Assembly: GCA_003136795.1 (NCBI GenBank)
Contig: PLDP01000039.1
Coordinates: 1-9,056, forward strand
Direction of reading: 5' to 3'
Length of the DNA: 9,056 bases
Source of the DNA: Actinomycetota bacterium
GTDB taxonomy: Bacteria; Actinomycetota; Thermoleophilia; Gaiellales; Gaiellaceae
Shown: positions 586-9,056 of the stretch, piece after piece
Position numbering within the stretch: the first letter of the stretch is position 1
Layout: the number at the start of each line of letters is the position of its first letter
The notes under the pieces: model-generated
Databases searched by the model: none
What the model saw: the letters and a program-made list of their open reading frames with translations, nothing else
Told to the model about the DNA's origin: nothing
Position numbers and translations under genes: made by a program

Positions 586-1841
586 AGCCCGAGCCCAGGG
601 TTCGGGATGTCGACCGCGTCGGGCGGAAACCGCTCGAGGGCCTCGTCGAGCGCCAGGTAGCGGAACCCGACCGCCTCGACCTCGGCGCGCGACAGTTCGG
701 GGCCGGGCGCGTAGGTGACGGTGAAGCGCCCCTCGGTCGAGCCGTGGATCAGATGCGCGACCGCCGCGAGGTTCGCCGCGAGCTCCGGGTCGGCCGCCAT
801 CGCCTGCAGCGCCGCCTCGCGCCCGTGATAACCGTGCCGCCGGATCAGCGCGTCCACGACGGGATCCTCGCCGAAGCGCGACACGCCCGGCGCGACGACG
901 AAGAGCTCCCCGCCATCCGCCATCGCGAGCCGCGTGCGGTAGATCGCCTTGTTCCCGAGCCAGGTCGAGCGGTACTCCCGCGGGTCGAGGTAGGCGACGC
1001 ACTGCTGAAACGGCGTCTCGAGCGTTTCGATGTTGACCTCGGCCGAAAGCGCGGCGGCCGTGCGAAACGCATCGCCCCCGGAGGAGCGAGTGCCGCCTTC
1101 GCCGGCGAAGACGCCGCGCAAGACCGGTCCCTCGTGACGAGCTTCGACGACGGTGAGGACGAACAGCACCCGGCAACGCTCCTCGAGGAAGCGATCGAAG
1201 CCCCGGTCGAGCAGCTGCCGGACGGGCGCGTCGATGCGTCCCAGCGTCTGCTCGATTCCGTAGACGGCGCTGAAGAAATGGCTGCGCTGGATCGTCTCCG
1301 GGCCACCGAGCCCGATCGAAACGTGTTTCGTGTAGCCGCCGAACCCCGCCACCTCGTGCGGCACCACCTGCCCGACGGAGACGACGAGGTCGTAGGAGCC
1401 GTCGACGAGCGCTCGGTTGACGGCGAACGGCAGGGCGAGACCCAGGAAGCGCCCGACCACCTCGTCGACCTCGTCCGCGGGGAGCTCACCGATCGTCGTC
1501 ACGTCGTCGCGCCAACGGTGGTGCAGCAAGCGCGCGGGATCAATCGCGTCGCCGAACATCAGCCTGCATTCGGCAGGACCGAGCGGCCGATGCGTGCCGA
1601 GCGCGGGCATCACGTCGACGCGCTCGACCTGGCTCTCGAGCAGCCCGGCGAGTTGCGCAACGATCTCTCCCGCGCGCGAATGCAGACGCGTCTGGTCGGG
1701 CGGCACGAGGAGCACGCTGCGCGCTCCCGTGCCCGCGACCTGGCCCGCGAGGTCGCGCACGAATGCGGCGAGCTCGTCCGGCGAGACGTCGGCGGTCGAG
1801 CCGCCGACCGCGAGGAGCGGCCGTCCGGTGGTCGTTTGCAC
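573..1841 (-). CDS. larA: LarA-family nickel-dependent 2-hydroxyacid racemase/epimerase (DUF2088)
   Basis: The 422-residue product matches the usual LarA length (about 424). LarA enzymes racemise or epimerise 2-hydroxyacids using a nickel-pincer nucleotide cofactor. Seen: PPDQTRLH (47-54), like the family's PDxTR motif; GTHRP with H84; PHEVAGFGGYTKH with H162 and K172; and QRSH with H188. In Lactiplantibacillus LarA the matching residues are H108, H174, K184 (cofactor attachment) and H200 (nickel ligand). The H-K-H spacing of 10 and 16 residues is identical here, so a working cofactor site is likely. The start is the first usable codon after the beta-subunit gene (59-bp gap); an upstream extension of the frame only overlaps that gene. 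The ribosome site is weak (CTGAG directly before GTG). The substrate is unknown: LarA homologues act on lactate, malate, 2-hydroxyglutarate, phenyllactate or gluconate. The uxaC neighbour favours a sugar acid, by inference. The LarB/C/E cofactor genes are not in the window. Confidence 0.88.
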   Translation of the reverse strand: MQTTTGRPLLAVGGSTADVSPDELAAFVRDLAGQVAGTGARSVLLVPPDQTRLHSRAGEIVAQLAGLLESQVERVDVMPALGTHRPLGPAECRLMFGDAIDPARLLHHRWRDDVTTIGELPADEVDEVVGRFLGLALPFAVNRALVDGSYDLVVSVGQVVPHEVAGFGGYTKHVSIGLGGPETIQRSHFFSAVYGIEQTLGRIDAPVRQLLDRGFDRFLEERCRVLFVLTVVEARHEGPVLRGVFAGEGGTRSSGGDAFRTAAALSAEVNIETLETPFQQCVAYLDPREYRSTWLGNKAIYRTRLAMADGGELFVVAPGVSRFGEDPVVDALIRRHGYHGREAALQAMAADPELAANLAAVAHLIHGSTEGRFTVTYAPGPELSRAEVEAVGFRYLALDEALERFPPDAVDIPNPGLGLWRI

Positions 1842-5903: not shown

Positions 5904-8261
5904 ATGCTCGGCCCGTTCCACACCGATGCTAGGAAGGTGGCCCTCGCACAATCTCGTGCCTACGATCGCAGGCACCTGCTCTACTCGTGGGAAGGCGCAC
6001 CGTTCGGCGTCAGCCTCCTGGACGCCGAGGGCCACATCCTGCAGAGCAACGAGGCGATGCGGTCGATCACCGGCTACGACGCGGGCGAGCTCGCGCGGCA
6101 GCCGGTCTCGAGCTACACGCACCCGGACGACGTTCTCGAAAGCGTGTCGAACTTCCGCCGCCTGCTCGCCGGTGAGACGGATTCCTACCGGCTCGAGACG
6201 CGGCTGATCGACAAGGGCGGCTGCACGGTCTGGGTCGACTGCTACCTCACCACGACGCAGGAGACCCCGGGGGCGCCGTGGACCGCGCTCGGGATGGTGC
6301 AGGACATCACGTCGCGCAAGCTCGCCGAGGTGAATCTGCAACGGGAGAAAGCCGACCTGTCGCGGCTGGTCGAGACTCAGGCCAAGATCGCGGCCGCCGA
6401 CCTCGGGCTCGAGGGCGCGGCGCAACTGATCGCCGAGCGCGCACAGGAGCTGACCGGCGCCGACGGCGCGACGGTGTGCATCCTCGACGGAGCTGACGCT
6501 GTGACCCGGTTCGCGGCGGGACAATCCGACGCGGCAGCTGAGGTCAGCGTCCCGCTCCTCCAAGGCGGCCGGAACGTCGGCTCGCTCGGTGTGACGAAAC
6601 GGTCCGGCATCACGGACCAAGACCGCCGCACGCTGGAGCTGCTCGCGATCCTCCTCTCCTCAGCGGTGAGCGAGGCGGCCGAACGCGCCGCACGGCGCGA
6701 GCAAACGGAGGCACTCGCCCGCTTCGAGACCATCTTCGAGCGCGCCCCGATCGGCATCGGACTCCTCAGCCTGAGCGGCCGGCTCCGAACCACGAACTCG
6801 GTCATGCGCGACATCACCGGCCAAAGCGCAGAGGAGCTCGCGAGCCGGAACGTGAGCGAGTACACGGTGCCCGAGGACGTCGACGAGATGGTCAAGCTCT
6901 TCACGGACATGCTCGAGGGAAAGCACGACTCGTACCGCCATGTGCATCGCCTCTACACCAAGGTCGGGGAGGTCGTCTGGGTCGACGTGGCCACGGCGCT
7001 CCTGCGCGACGCGGACGGGAAGCCGCAGGGCGCGGTCACGATGGCCCAGGACATCACGCAGCGGCGCGCGGCCGAGGAGCAGCTGCGCCAGTCTCAGAAG
7101 ATCGACGCGATCGGCCAGCTCGCCGCGGGCATTGCGCACGACTTCAACAACCTGCTCGTCGGGATGCTCGGCTACACCGAGCTCGCACGAGCGAAGATCG
7201 ATGCCAACGAACCGGCGGCCGAGTACCTGAGCCAAGTCGAGACATGCGCGCAGCGCGCCACCACGCTCACCGGGCAGCTGCTCGCGTTCGGCCGGCGCCA
7301 GGCCCTCCACCCGCGGCCACTCGAGTTGAACGCGCTCGTCTCGGAGACCGTCGCGATGTTGCACAGCATCCTCGGCGACCGGATCGAGCTCGTGGCTGTG
7401 CTCGACCCCGCGCTCGGCATCGTTCGGGCCGATGGCGGCCAGATGCAGCAGGTGCTCCTCAACCTCGCCCTGAACGCGCGCGACGCGATGCCCGACGGCG
7501 GCACCTTGACGATCCGGACGACCAACGCCGAAGTCGGCGCGGGCGGTCTCTTCAGCCGCGAGCTCGAGCCCGGACCGTACGTCGTCCTTTCGATCGAGGA
7601 CGAGGGCTCCGGGATGACGCCCGAGGTCCTCGACAAGATCTTCGATCCGTTTTTCACGACGAAGGACGTCGGTAAGGGCACCGGCCTGGGACTCTCGAGC
7701 GCCCACGGGATCCTCAAGCAGAGCGGCGGCCACATCGAGGTCGCGAGCGAGCCCAACCTCGGCAGCTCCTTCCACTGCTACCTGCCCGCGATTCCTGCTC
7801 CGCTCGCCGAGGAGGAGGGAACGACGGAGCCTGAGCCCCAGCGGCTGTTCAGCGACGCACCGCCGGGCGCCGGCCGGCGGATCCTCGTCGTCGAGGACGA
7901 AGCCGTTGTGCGGAGACTGCTCGCCCACACGCTCGCGCAGCTCGGCTACGCGGTCGAAACCGCAGAGGATCCCTCGTTCGCACTGCCGAAGCTCCGCGAG
8001 CGCGGCGACGAGTTCGCGCTGGTGATCTCCGACATGATGATGCCGCACATGACCGGAGCCGATTTGGCGCGCAAGGTCGCGGAATGGCAGCCCGAGCTGC
8101 CGTTCGTCTTCATCTCCGGCTACACCGAAGACATGGGCACCGGGGAGTCACCGTTCCTGCAGAAGCCCTTCACCTTGGAGACGCTCGCGACCACCGTGCG
8201 CGAGGCGATCGAGCACTCGGACCAGGAACGGCGGAGCTCACTTTACGCAATGAAGTCTTAG
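5904..8261 (+). CDS. Soluble hybrid sensor histidine kinase, PAS-GAF-PAS-HisKA-HATPase-REC
   Basis: The 785-residue product has no membrane segment, so it senses a cytoplasmic signal. Order: PAS1 (about 28-138, ending GMVQDITSRK), GAF-like domain (about 160-260), PAS2 (about 274-388, ending MAQDITQRR), and HisKA with phospho-acceptor H412 in GIAHDFNNLL. The ATPase follows, with its N-box around NLALNARDAMPDGG (520-533), DEGSGM (566-571), FDPFFTTK (580-587) and GTGLGLSS (592-599). Last is a receiver domain (about 658-772) with E664/D665, phospho-acceptor D710, S738 and K754. The core and the C-terminal receiver resemble NtrB/CckA-type hybrids; all key residues are present. No DNA-binding or ANTAR domain follows the receiver. 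A stop codon lies in frame just upstream (5889), so the start is ATG 5904, which has no Shine-Dalgarno, or GTG 5937. The next gene is amt, so a nitrogen-related role is plausible but inferred. Confidence 0.9.
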   Translation: MLGPFHTDARKVALAQSRAYDRRHLLYSWEGAPFGVSLLDAEGHILQSNEAMRSITGYDAGELARQPVSSYTHPDDVLESVSNFRRLLAGETDSYRLETRLIDKGGCTVWVDCYLTTTQETPGAPWTALGMVQDITSRKLAEVNLQREKADLSRLVETQAKIAAADLGLEGAAQLIAERAQELTGADGATVCILDGADAVTRFAAGQSDAAAEVSVPLLQGGRNVGSLGVTKRSGITDQDRRTLELLAILLSSAVSEAAERAARREQTEALARFETIFERAPIGIGLLSLSGRLRTTNSVMRDITGQSAEELASRNVSEYTVPEDVDEMVKLFTDMLEGKHDSYRHVHRLYTKVGEVVWVDVATALLRDADGKPQGAVTMAQDITQRRAAEEQLRQSQKIDAIGQLAAGIAHDFNNLLVGMLGYTELARAKIDANEPAAEYLSQVETCAQRATTLTGQLLAFGRRQALHPRPLELNALVSETVAMLHSILGDRIELVAVLDPALGIVRADGGQMQQVLLNLALNARDAMPDGGTLTIRTTNAEVGAGGLFSRELEPGPYVVLSIEDEGSGMTPEVLDKIFDPFFTTKDVGKGTGLGLSSAHGILKQSGGHIEVASEPNLGSSFHCYLPAIPAPLAEEEGTTEPEPQRLFSDAPPGAGRRILVVEDEAVVRRLLAHTLAQLGYAVETAEDPSFALPKLRERGDEFALVISDMMMPHMTGADLARKVAEWQPELPFVFISGYTEDMGTGESPFLQKPFTLETLATTVREAIEHSDQERRSSLYAMKS

Positions 8262-8264
8262 AAC

Positions 8265-8292
8265 TTGACACGCACACTCGTGCGTGTATCTT
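8265..8292 (+). promoter_or_regulatory. Promoter for amt, with a perfect inverted repeat in the spacer
   Basis: A consensus -35, TTGACA (8265-8270), is followed after 16 bp by TATCTT (8287-8292), which matches TATAAT at four of six positions. It starts three bases after the kinase stop codon and would initiate near 8299. Between the boxes ACACGCAC (8268-8275) and GTGCGTGT (8280-8287) form a perfect 8-bp inverted repeat around ACTC. The repeat overlaps the end of the -35 and the first base of the -10, the position expected of an operator whose bound protein would block or remodel polymerase binding. The protein is unknown. Confidence 0.7.
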
Positions 8293-8305
8293 GGCGGCAC
8301 GCGTT

Positions 8306-8342
8306 GCGGCAACGGCGTCGCTCGCGGAGGCAATGTGGCCTC
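8306..8342 (+). promoter_or_regulatory. Candidate ANTAR antitermination element (two hexaloop hairpins) in the amt leader
   Basis: Two short hairpins lie at the start of the predicted transcript. P1 is GCGGC (8306-8310), loop AACGGC (8311-8316), GTCGC (8317-8321), with one G-U pair. P2 is GAGGC (8327-8331), loop AATGTG (8332-8337), GCCTC (8338-8342), perfectly paired. Both loops are six bases with A first and G fourth, the hallmark of RNA bound by ANTAR-domain antiterminators such as EutV and NasR. The 3' arm of P2 is also the 5' foot of the downstream terminator, so P2 and the terminator exclude each other. By family knowledge, an activated ANTAR dimer would hold P1-P2, prevent termination and allow amt expression. 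A competing small hairpin, CGTTG-CGG-CAACG (8302-8314), could mask P1. Confidence 0.7.
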
Positions 8343-8371
8343 AGGACTCTGACGAGTCCTGGGGCTTTTTT
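8338..8371 (+). terminator. Intrinsic terminator in the amt leader (attenuator)
   Basis: GCCTCAGGACTC (8338-8349) pairs fully with GAGTCCTGGGGC (8354-8365), including one T-G wobble, around the loop TGAC, giving a 12-bp stem followed at once by six T (8366-8371). It lies between the amt promoter and the amt start codon, 50 bp before the ATG, so by default it would stop amt transcription. It would also stop readthrough from the kinase gene. Its 5' foot is shared with the upstream hexaloop hairpin. Confidence 0.88.
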
Positions 8372-8408
8372 GTGTTGGGCGAACGAGGCAAACGCGCGCA
8401 GGCGCCCC

Positions 8409-8416
8409 GAGAGGAG
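8409..8416 (+). promoter_or_regulatory. Ribosome binding site of amt
   Basis: GAGAGGAG ends 5 nt before the ATG at 8422. It is downstream of the terminator, so it is made only in readthrough transcripts. Confidence 0.85.
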
Positions 8417-8421
8417 ATCCA

Positions 8422-9056
8422 ATGCTCTACCCCCAATGGCTGAACCCAGGCGACAATTCGTGGCAGCTCACCGCAGCAACGCTCGTCGGCTTGATGAGCG
8501 TGCCGGGCCTCGTCGTCCTGTACGGCGGCGTGATGCAGAAGCGCTGGTCGGTGAACAGCATGATGCTCGCGTTCATCGCCTTCGCACTCGTGCTCGTGGT
8601 GTGGGTGCTCTACGGATTCAAGATGGGTTTCGGCAGCCCGATCCCGATCGGGTCGAAAGGGAGCTTCTGGCACAACTTCCTCGGCAAGCCCGCCCCTGTG
8701 CTCGACCACAAAGCCATGCAGGGCCAGGCGAAGATCCCCAACCTCGGCGCTGCAGGCGTCCTCGACTTTCCACAGTCGTCGCTCGTCTACTTCCAGTTCG
8801 TCTTTGCGGCGATCACGCCGATCCTGATGCTCGGCTCGGTGCTCGGGCGGGTCAACTTCAAGGCGTGGATCCCGTTCGTCGTGCTGTGGACGAGCGTCGT
8901 CTACACCGTCAACGCGTTCCTGATCTGGGGGGGCGGCTGGTTCGCACAGCACGGAGCTGTCGACTTCAGCGGCGGCTATGTGATCCACCTCGCGGCCGGT
9001 GTGTCCGGCTTCGTTGCCGCGTGGGTGATCGGCCCGCGCCTTGCGCGTGACCGTGA
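8422..9056 (+). CDS. amt: Amt-family ammonium transporter, N-terminal 211 residues; cut by window end
   Basis: An integral membrane channel that takes up ammonium. Seen: an N-terminal helix with PGLVVLYGGVMQKRWSVNS (28-46); a second helix, MMLAFIAFALVLVVWVLYGF (47-66); FQFVFAAITPILMLGSVLGR (124-143); FLIWGGGWF (166-174), whose Trp matches the pore-entry Trp of AmtB; and the family signature DFSGGYVIHLAAGVSGFVAAW (181-201), with H189 at the position of the first pore histidine. The remaining helices and the second pore histidine are beyond the window. Unlike E. coli AmtB there is no cleavable signal peptide. The start has a good ribosome site. The leader carries its own promoter and a regulated-looking terminator, so expression is probably tied to nitrogen status. 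A PII-family gene often follows amt but cannot be seen here. Confidence 0.93.
   Translation, partial: MLYPQWLNPGDNSWQLTAATLVGLMSVPGLVVLYGGVMQKRWSVNSMMLAFIAFALVLVVWVLYGFKMGFGSPIPIGSKGSFWHNFLGKPAPVLDHKAMQGQAKIPNLGAAGVLDFPQSSLVYFQFVFAAITPILMLGSVLGRVNFKAWIPFVVLWTSVVYTVNAFLIWGGGWFAQHGAVDFSGGYVIHLAAGVSGFVAAWVIGPRLARDR

Follow-up and report, generated by a model that had tools for sequence, protein, structure and literature searches.

The window analysed here is a 9,056-nucleotide stretch of an actinobacterial genome of the order Gaiellales (contig PLDP01000039.1), and its last part is taken up by amt, an ammonium transporter gene. Between a predicted promoter and the amt start, there is a leader that bears two hexaloop hairpins (P1 and P2), a terminator-like stem-loop, and a U tract (Table 1). 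The whole arrangement, from the promoter at 8265 to the amt ATG, lies inside 160 bp and follows the order (promoter, P1, P2, terminator, ribosome site, amt) that a first-pass annotation of this DNA had proposed. The same annotation was right in describing two hairpins with the loops AACGGC and AATGTG, both with A at loop position 1 (A1) and G at position 4 (G4) and separated by 5 nt, and in assigning GCCTC at 8338–8342 both to P2 and to the foot of the terminator. Because the terminator foot is the 3′ arm of P2, the two hairpins are mutually exclusive. What had been called a perfect 12-bp terminator plus six T is indeed a hairpin with six T but is not perfect, as one U·G wobble occurs among its pairs.

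Table 1. Elements of the amt leader and the gene behind it (positions in the window).
Feature	Position	Strand	Details	Basis
Predicted promoter	8265–8270, 8287–8292	+	TTGACA, 16-nt spacer, TATCTT	pattern scan
P1 outer stem	8300–8303, 8323–8326	+	CGCG with CGCG, 4 bp, flush with P2	RNAfold centroid
P1 hexaloop hairpin	8306–8321	+	5-bp stem, arms GCGGC 8306–8310 and GTCGC 8317–8321, 5 pairs including one G·U; loop AACGGC 8311–8316 (A1, G4)	sequence, fold, covariation
Linker between P1 and P2	8322–8326		5 nt	
P2 hexaloop hairpin	8327–8342	+	5-bp stem, arms GAGGC 8327–8331 and GCCTC 8338–8342; loop AATGTG 8332–8337 (A1, G4)	sequence, fold
Terminator-like stem-loop	8337–8366	+	12–13 pairs including one U·G, arms 8337–8349 and 8354–8366, loop TGAC	terminator scan, fold
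U tract	8366–8371	+	six T	sequence
Likely ribosome-binding site of amt	8410–8417	+	AGAGGAGA	read from sequence
amt, ammonium transporter (PF00909)	8422–9054	+	ATG at 8422; extends past window end	Pfam match

The promoter-like pair was found once, against 0.0 expected in shuffled sequences, and the last base of its −10 box lies 34 nt 5′ of P2, within the cluster of 26–40 nt that is seen in the leaders of relatives. The linker falls into the range of 2–25 nt given for the hairpins of ANTAR targets (PMC8164766), and 79 nt separate the end of P2 from the amt start. Every sequence feature of ANTAR targets that was tested, namely paired hexaloops, A1, G4, the linker, and the terminator overlap, is present in this leader, while none of the 4227 models of Rfam 15 gives a match in it up to E 5. 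The outer stem of P1 was absent from the first-pass list and lies outside the covariation tests described below. Elsewhere in the window, a long frame directly 5′ of the amt promoter (5904–8261) reads as a hybrid sensor kinase with a C-terminal receiver, and positions 858–896 (minus strand, in a coding region) give a sub-threshold match to an Rfam CRISPR repeat (22.5 bits versus a cut-off of 39), which is taken as chance.

When 8298–8352 is folded with RNAfold, the centroid consists of P1, P2, and the P1 outer stem. The stability of these hairpins is not unusual in comparison with shuffled sequences (z of −0.5 for P1–P2 alone and −1.3 for 8298–8352), so the evidence that goes beyond chance is comparative; the stretch including the terminator (8304–8372) reaches a z of −3.5. 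A scan for terminator-like hairpins found one versus 0.5 expected in shuffles, and the terminator is therefore not unusual by itself. Folding of successively longer RNA shows P2 still present in the optimal structure at base 8360 and displaced by the terminator at 8364, the computed energies being −24.8 kcal/mol for the terminator versus −8.6 kcal/mol for P2. A competing hairpin at 8302–8314, in which the first-pass annotation saw a possible further switch, does exist, but such a switch is not upheld and was rejected: the hairpin is weaker than P1 (−3.6 versus −7.1 kcal/mol) and mostly not shared, for at its position 12 of the 16 other aligned units (see below) have none, two (L041a and L043a) have a different perfect hairpin, and two (L049a and L054a) have only P1 itself.

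A search of the 129 genomes of the order for orthologues of the window’s amt gave 12 close ones at 74–86% identity, the weaker matches being other amt genes. One of the 12 leaders is cut by a contig end; in all 11 others, P2 is fused to a terminator-like hairpin, which was found by the scan in 10 and by eye in L016/L087, where the T tract is interrupted. P2 and its overlap with the terminator, on whose conservation in relatives the first-pass annotation had staked its reading along with that of the loops, are thus kept, and so is P1, with some irregular stems: P1 of L037 folds better with a five-base loop, and a mismatch interrupts the stem in L087 and L059 as well as in the first unit of both L041 and L043. 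Five of the amt-orthologue genomes, all of genus g9, carry two P1–P2–terminator units in tandem, which look as if they served to tighten the off state. Tandem units of this one genus were seen before amt in L041, L043, L049, L054, and L059, and before a REC gene in L198 and L199.

Seventeen leader units of this amt class, including the window’s, were aligned, and the alignment was the source of the covariance model R1. Among its 17 consensus pairs (P1 and the terminator), 9 show compensatory changes. With P1 and P2 placed as named in the first-pass annotation, 87.0% of the cells are paired versus 31.0–53.5% when the hairpins are slid, and none of 500 shuffles attains this percentage or equals the covariation score; on two weaker measures, the counts of pairs and of types, 46 and 32 of the 500 do so. 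The three inner pairs of P2 are invariant, the outermost is disrupted in 9 of the 17 units, and P2 is backed more by sequence conservation than by covariation. A second alignment brought together 41 leaders that precede other genes (glutamine synthetase, P-II/amt2, and REC), with none from the window’s amt class. Here, 92.4% of the P1 and P2 cells are paired versus 29.3–49.9% when slid, no shuffle out of 500 reaches the covariation score, and the outer P2 pair is broken in 14 leaders with the three inner pairs again invariant. The model R2 built from this alignment scores the window’s leader at 69.0 bits (E 6e-23 in a search of the window) and also recovers all 16 other units of the first alignment, its 41 leaders having been gathered with R1, which makes the collection and the test partly dependent. 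The covariance-model search suggested by the first-pass annotation thus recovers the window with a model built without its class. As for the covariation with invariant A1 and G4 expected there, P1 does covary and G4 is near-invariant, but A1 is not, P1 having mostly G1.

The distribution of R1 matches is centred on the order. Among the matches listed for its 129 genomes, 117 genomes have one at E ≤ 0.05 and 82 at E < 1e-5, while a class-wide search of 399 genomes gave only two genomes outside the order below 1e-5 (G269 and G373) and 29 with weak matches at E ≤ 0.001. The genes were surveyed in the DNA around 134 distinct R1 matches, re-located after retrieval; this set was drawn from the best matches listed and omits the units of L037 and L087, the second units of the tandem pairs in L163–L165, and matches weaker than ~1e-6 unless they lay in a retrieved stretch. 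For 125 of the 134, a gene match starts no more than 700 nt further downstream: glutamine synthetase in 83 (GSI 31, GSx 32, and GSII 20, by the class names of this analysis), Amt or P-II in 33 (including 12 of the amt class behind R1), and REC or REC-ANTAR in nine. Among the nine unassigned leaders, L188/L238 also precedes P-II and amt2, which brings the number standing before ammonium-assimilation or REC(-ANTAR) genes to 126 of 134; one ends at a contig end, and the others precede genes for an MGS-domain protein, an FAD oxidoreductase, a HAD hydrolase, a group 1 glycosyltransferase (L276, with L284 alike by reading), or an ATP-grasp protein, or no clear gene. The first-pass annotation had tied the leader to amt; it is a real amt leader, but amt alone was too narrow, as it belongs to an order-wide regulon. 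The estimated gene start lies within 150 nt of the leader in 106 of the 125 cases. Sixteen Amt matches begin 356–519 nt downstream, a gap that fits an intervening P-II gene; such a gene was read in L193, L188, and L218. Three other genes begin at 314, 494, and 614 nt. The overlap of P2 with the terminator is present in 130 of the 134 leaders at the threshold used; one leader lacking a P2 anchor and three under the overlap threshold were dropped from further analysis. The glycosyltransferase leaders, of the same kind as the rest, belong to G087 (L276) and G097 (L284), and their gene has its place outside nitrogen metabolism.

Among the matches listed for the window’s own genome, both models give three clear sites (amt, a glutamine synthetase on contig C288, and one on C63), the next having an E of 0.03; C288 also carries the genome’s GSI gene, which has no leader and stands behind an ABC operon. 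Between the C63 leader and a truncated REC gene 314 nt downstream lies an opposite-strand frame, so the assignment of this leader to REC is uncertain. In L192 (6783–7141), this leader points into the opposite-strand frame 6783–7085, ThiS/MoaD-like by reading, which lies before the REC gene. A closely similar leader in G090 precedes P-II/amt2, and C63 is perhaps a rearranged P-II/amt2 locus. Receiver-only proteins that bear a short tail (e.g., WPLRIERRADGSLDV) in place of ANTAR were noticed in L199 (3538–4098, minus strand), L198 (2449–3102, plus), L036 (2371–2877, plus), and L192 (6409–6747, minus). Their genes are preceded by a leader, in tandem in L198 and L199, and lie near amt or REC-ANTAR in several genomes; the copy of the window’s genome has 112 aa and misses part of the receiver. 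A role as a phosphate sink or feedback partner is possible for such a protein.

The loop letters and spacing were studied in the 130 anchored leaders. Position 4 of the P2 loop is G in 128 of them (116 of 118 without R1’s amt class), while position 1 is A in 74 and G in 48. For P1, folding of 86 dual leaders with RNAfold gave 51 hexaloops, 27 tetraloops, and 8 other structures, compared with hexaloops at ~15% and tetraloops at about a third of the loops in shuffles. After the eight leaders with neither a hexaloop nor a closed tetraloop had been dropped, and with a tetraloop plus its closing pair counted as a hexaloop, position 4 is G in 77 of the 78 resolved loops, with 67 G and 7 A at position 1; these G4 figures, like those for P2, are upper bounds because R1, used to choose the matches, already prefers G4. 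In 72 of the 78 leaders, the distance from the end of the P1 loop to the P2 arm downstream is 9–11 nt. A1, which helps to define the motif as published, is present in both loops of the window but is not general in the P1 of the order, where G1 dominates. The fixed G4 and the free position 1 fit the EutV–RNA structure (6WSH and 6WW6), in which G4 makes the sole base-specific contact and A1 none (PMC8934654). A simple stem score over loop sizes 4–8 preferred a six-base loop in 93 of 132 P2 and 46 of 132 P1 (P1-less leaders included), but this automatic choice of the best stem is noisy, since a G1–C6 pair turns many hexaloops into tetraloops, and it was replaced by the anchored and folded analyses. 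The latter demand three pairs in P2 and take P1 from the fold, which biases the pairing percentages, so only the loop letters and distances were used.

The leaders of glnA (GSI) stand apart in the position of the predicted promoter. A TANNNT box whose last base lies 26–40 nt 5′ of the P2 arm is present in 84 of 100 non-GSI leaders (~7 expected in shuffles) and in 2 of 30 GSI leaders, 26 of which have the box at 8–17 nt instead, versus 1.4 expected; 15 of the 130 leaders have TANNNT at neither spacing. An RNA starting 6–8 nt 3′ of the near box would lack P1 and contain just P2 and the terminator, and glnA in most of these genomes is, by its predicted starts, likely a single-hexaloop attenuator. 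In family f3, a P1 was read in the GSI leaders (L209, L234, L244, and L252). Three GSII leaders also have the box at 8–17 nt; with 0.8 such cases expected by chance, they may be misfits and were left out of the single-hexaloop group. In the 2022 structural work on EutV, one hexaloop is the minimal ANTAR site, two being retained for antitermination; EutX is noted to have an additional single hexaloop, the stem-loops of mycobacteria are said not to be dual in every case, and further analysis of single hexaloops is called for (PMC8934654). This paper, in its accessible text, names no single-hexaloop terminator leader, for which the glnA leaders are candidates, and in the open-licence literature it is the only one found to combine “ANTAR” with “single hexaloop”. 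On balance, we consider it rather probable that the order runs amt, P-II/amt2, the three glutamine synthetase classes, and REC plus REC-ANTAR through terminator-type ANTAR leaders, with glnA under P1-less single-hexaloop control. If so, one ANTAR protein would read both dual and single sites, and the regulon would offer a natural paired comparison to show the purpose of P1; the presence of one- and two-hexaloop leaders within one regulon would make the single-site question directly testable.

The absence of an ANTAR-domain protein from the genome would have spoken against the first-pass interpretation; four such proteins are encoded there. One of them is a REC-ANTAR (G000:C17) whose gene lies just 3′ of that for a HisKA_2 kinase with a partial GAF domain. 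Its best PDB match is 1s8n, called a putative antiterminator (E 6.5e-52), followed by 6wsh, EutV. It is 77–83% identical to the REC-ANTARs in seven GSI-holding stretches (L193, L194, L195, L197, L207, L208, and L210), with the adjacent kinase Pfam-confirmed in L194 only. Orthologues (E ≤ 1e-45) occur in 111 of the 129 genomes and, among the matches listed, in 77 of the 82 with a strong leader match, the other five being 56–78% complete. On the same count of listed matches, 34 of the 47 genomes lacking a strong match also have the orthologue (15 of these in family f2), and REC-ANTAR therefore has other targets, or targets missed by R1. Leader matches track ANTAR genes: they occur in 80 of 117 genomes with ANTAR versus 2 of 12 without (p 0.0007, among the matches listed), and among the 162 ANTAR genes listed, 34 lie within 15 kb of a leader match, with ~3.4 expected. 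In L087, the gene order is amt, a usp-like frame, REC-ANTAR, while in G105 a leader match directly precedes the REC and REC-ANTAR genes. The partner of the leader is likely this PdtaR-like REC-ANTAR, orthologues of which are often found near glnA.

In an alignment mapped by hand, the EutV contacts Arg142, Lys143, Lys149, Glu160, and Arg168 are kept in the REC-ANTAR of the window’s genome, Tyr164 is replaced by Phe, and Met172 (replaced by Gln), Asn173, Arg175, and Arg177 are not kept. Met172 has been reported as essential in EutV and proposed to help exclude pseudotriloops, as A1 may (PMC8934654). The Gln in place of Met172 and the G1 in place of A1 in P1 may belong together. The kinase and REC-ANTAR are often encoded near glnA in the order and track the ammonium genes. 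Their closest two-component relative is presumably PdtaS-PdtaR (Rv1626) of mycobacteria, which likewise combines a HisKA_2 kinase with REC-ANTAR. The mycobacterial ANTAR setting is one of lipid and redox processes (PMC8164766), in contrast to the ammonium genes that the pair follows here, which suggests a role of a PdtaS-PdtaR-like pair in the control of ammonium assimilation. As a guess from the targets, the kinase might sense ammonium or glutamine status.

Taken together, the R2 match, the gene context, the kept G4, and the tracking of ANTAR genes strongly support the earlier reading of the leader as an ANTAR target. Very probably, it is a transcription attenuator of the order’s regulon that is switched to readthrough by an ANTAR protein, likely the PdtaR-like REC-ANTAR. 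The RNA would start near 8299, with P1 and then P2 forming as it emerges, and in the computed fold P2 would stay until about base 8360. Without the protein, the stronger terminator hairpin would capture GCCTC from P2, and transcription would stop at 8366–8371. A REC-ANTAR dimer, activated through phosphorylation in response to a nitrogen signal, would bind the flipped-out G4 first in P1 and next in P2, keeping P2 closed; only a 7-bp upper stem, apart from the U tract, would be left of the terminator, and RNA polymerase could reach amt.

The identity of the partner is the point on which a different answer deserves most attention. The other ANTAR proteins of the genome (on C86, C198, and C147) all have a good ANTAR domain, with a receiver match that is weak or none, and the C86 class is enriched in genomes with leader matches (35 of 82 versus 5 of 47, among the matches listed). 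This class (E ≤ 1e-30) is, however, confined to 40 of the 129 genomes and missing from 47 of the 82 strong-match genomes listed, 77 of which have REC-ANTAR, the ANTAR found near glnA; an attenuator served by one of the three is therefore unlikely. An attenuator working without any protein, in which the hairpins were spacers and amt RNA was held at a fixed low level, or in which a small molecule such as glutamine bound the RNA, would agree with a terminator so much stronger than P2, and ANTAR binding itself is something that we infer. Yet the covariation of P1, the kept G4, and the near-constant P1-loop-to-P2 distance would be needless for a spacer, and the concentration of leader matches in ANTAR-bearing genomes likewise makes this explanation very improbable.

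Action of the hairpins on translation has been proposed for many actinobacterial ANTAR RNAs, ~37% of which overlap the ribosome site or start codon and few of which stand 5′ of a terminator (Mehta and Ramesh 2021, PMC8164766). It can hardly be expected at amt, where P2 ends well before the start codon and is fused to a terminator-like hairpin, as in nearly all leaders surveyed, and readthrough by an ANTAR protein remains our preferred reading.

Antitermination of nitrogen genes by ANTAR proteins has been described for other phyla and is proposed here for Actinobacteria. The described targets of Firmicutes and Proteobacteria include eut of E. faecalis with EutV, nasF with NasR, and amiE with AmiR (PMC3369931). 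The window’s leader shares with them the two hexaloop hairpins, A1 and G4, the 5-nt linker, the overlap of P2 with the terminator, and the nitrogen genes; it differs in the phylum, in G1 mostly replacing A1 in P1 across the order, in the near-constant distance between the P1 loop and P2, and in that part of the regulon likely has P2 only. Ramesh et al. 2012 (PMC3369931) list ammonium transporters, P-II, and glutamine synthases among the matches in other bacteria, so ANTAR control of amt is not new as such. With the actinobacterial ANTAR RNAs of the 2021 survey (PMC8164766), the leader has in common the phylum, the dual hexaloop, and the ANTAR proteins. Those targets often overlap the start codon or ribosome site, and few are of the terminator type, whereas terminators and ammonium-assimilation genes prevail here; the terms “ammonium”, “amt”, “glutamine”, “Thermoleophil”, and “Gaiella” are absent from the main text of that survey. 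No comparable regulon in Actinobacteria was found in the open-licence literature. What is new here is an order-wide, terminator-type ammonium-assimilation regulon in Actinobacteria with tandem units, near-constant spacing, and likely single-hexaloop glnA leaders.

The scan found no hexaloop leader in 69 other named loci of the window’s amt (e.g., from Solirubrobacterales and Acidimicrobiales), a set in which L035 is cut at a contig end and not all loci necessarily lie outside the order. The best R1 match there (L091, 19.9 bits), on the minus strand and 3 kb away, does not represent an amt leader; another match, directly 5′ of amt in L072 (7920–7954), has 11.3 bits and an E of 1. A plain P2 sequence pattern proved useless without structure and terminator, giving 19 matches in the window’s genome versus 17 with the reversed control. 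The amt leaders devoid of hexaloops bear another element ~120–175 nt 5′ of amt (L040, L052, L064, L073, L082, L084, L094–L097, L104, and others). It consists of ATGTCCA followed by GCTGGAC and GGCCATGG or, alternatively, of ATGTCGAAA and TTGGCCA. In these leaders, GTCCAGA occurs in 13 of 67 (1.1 expected) and TTGGCCA in 16 of 67 (0.9 expected).
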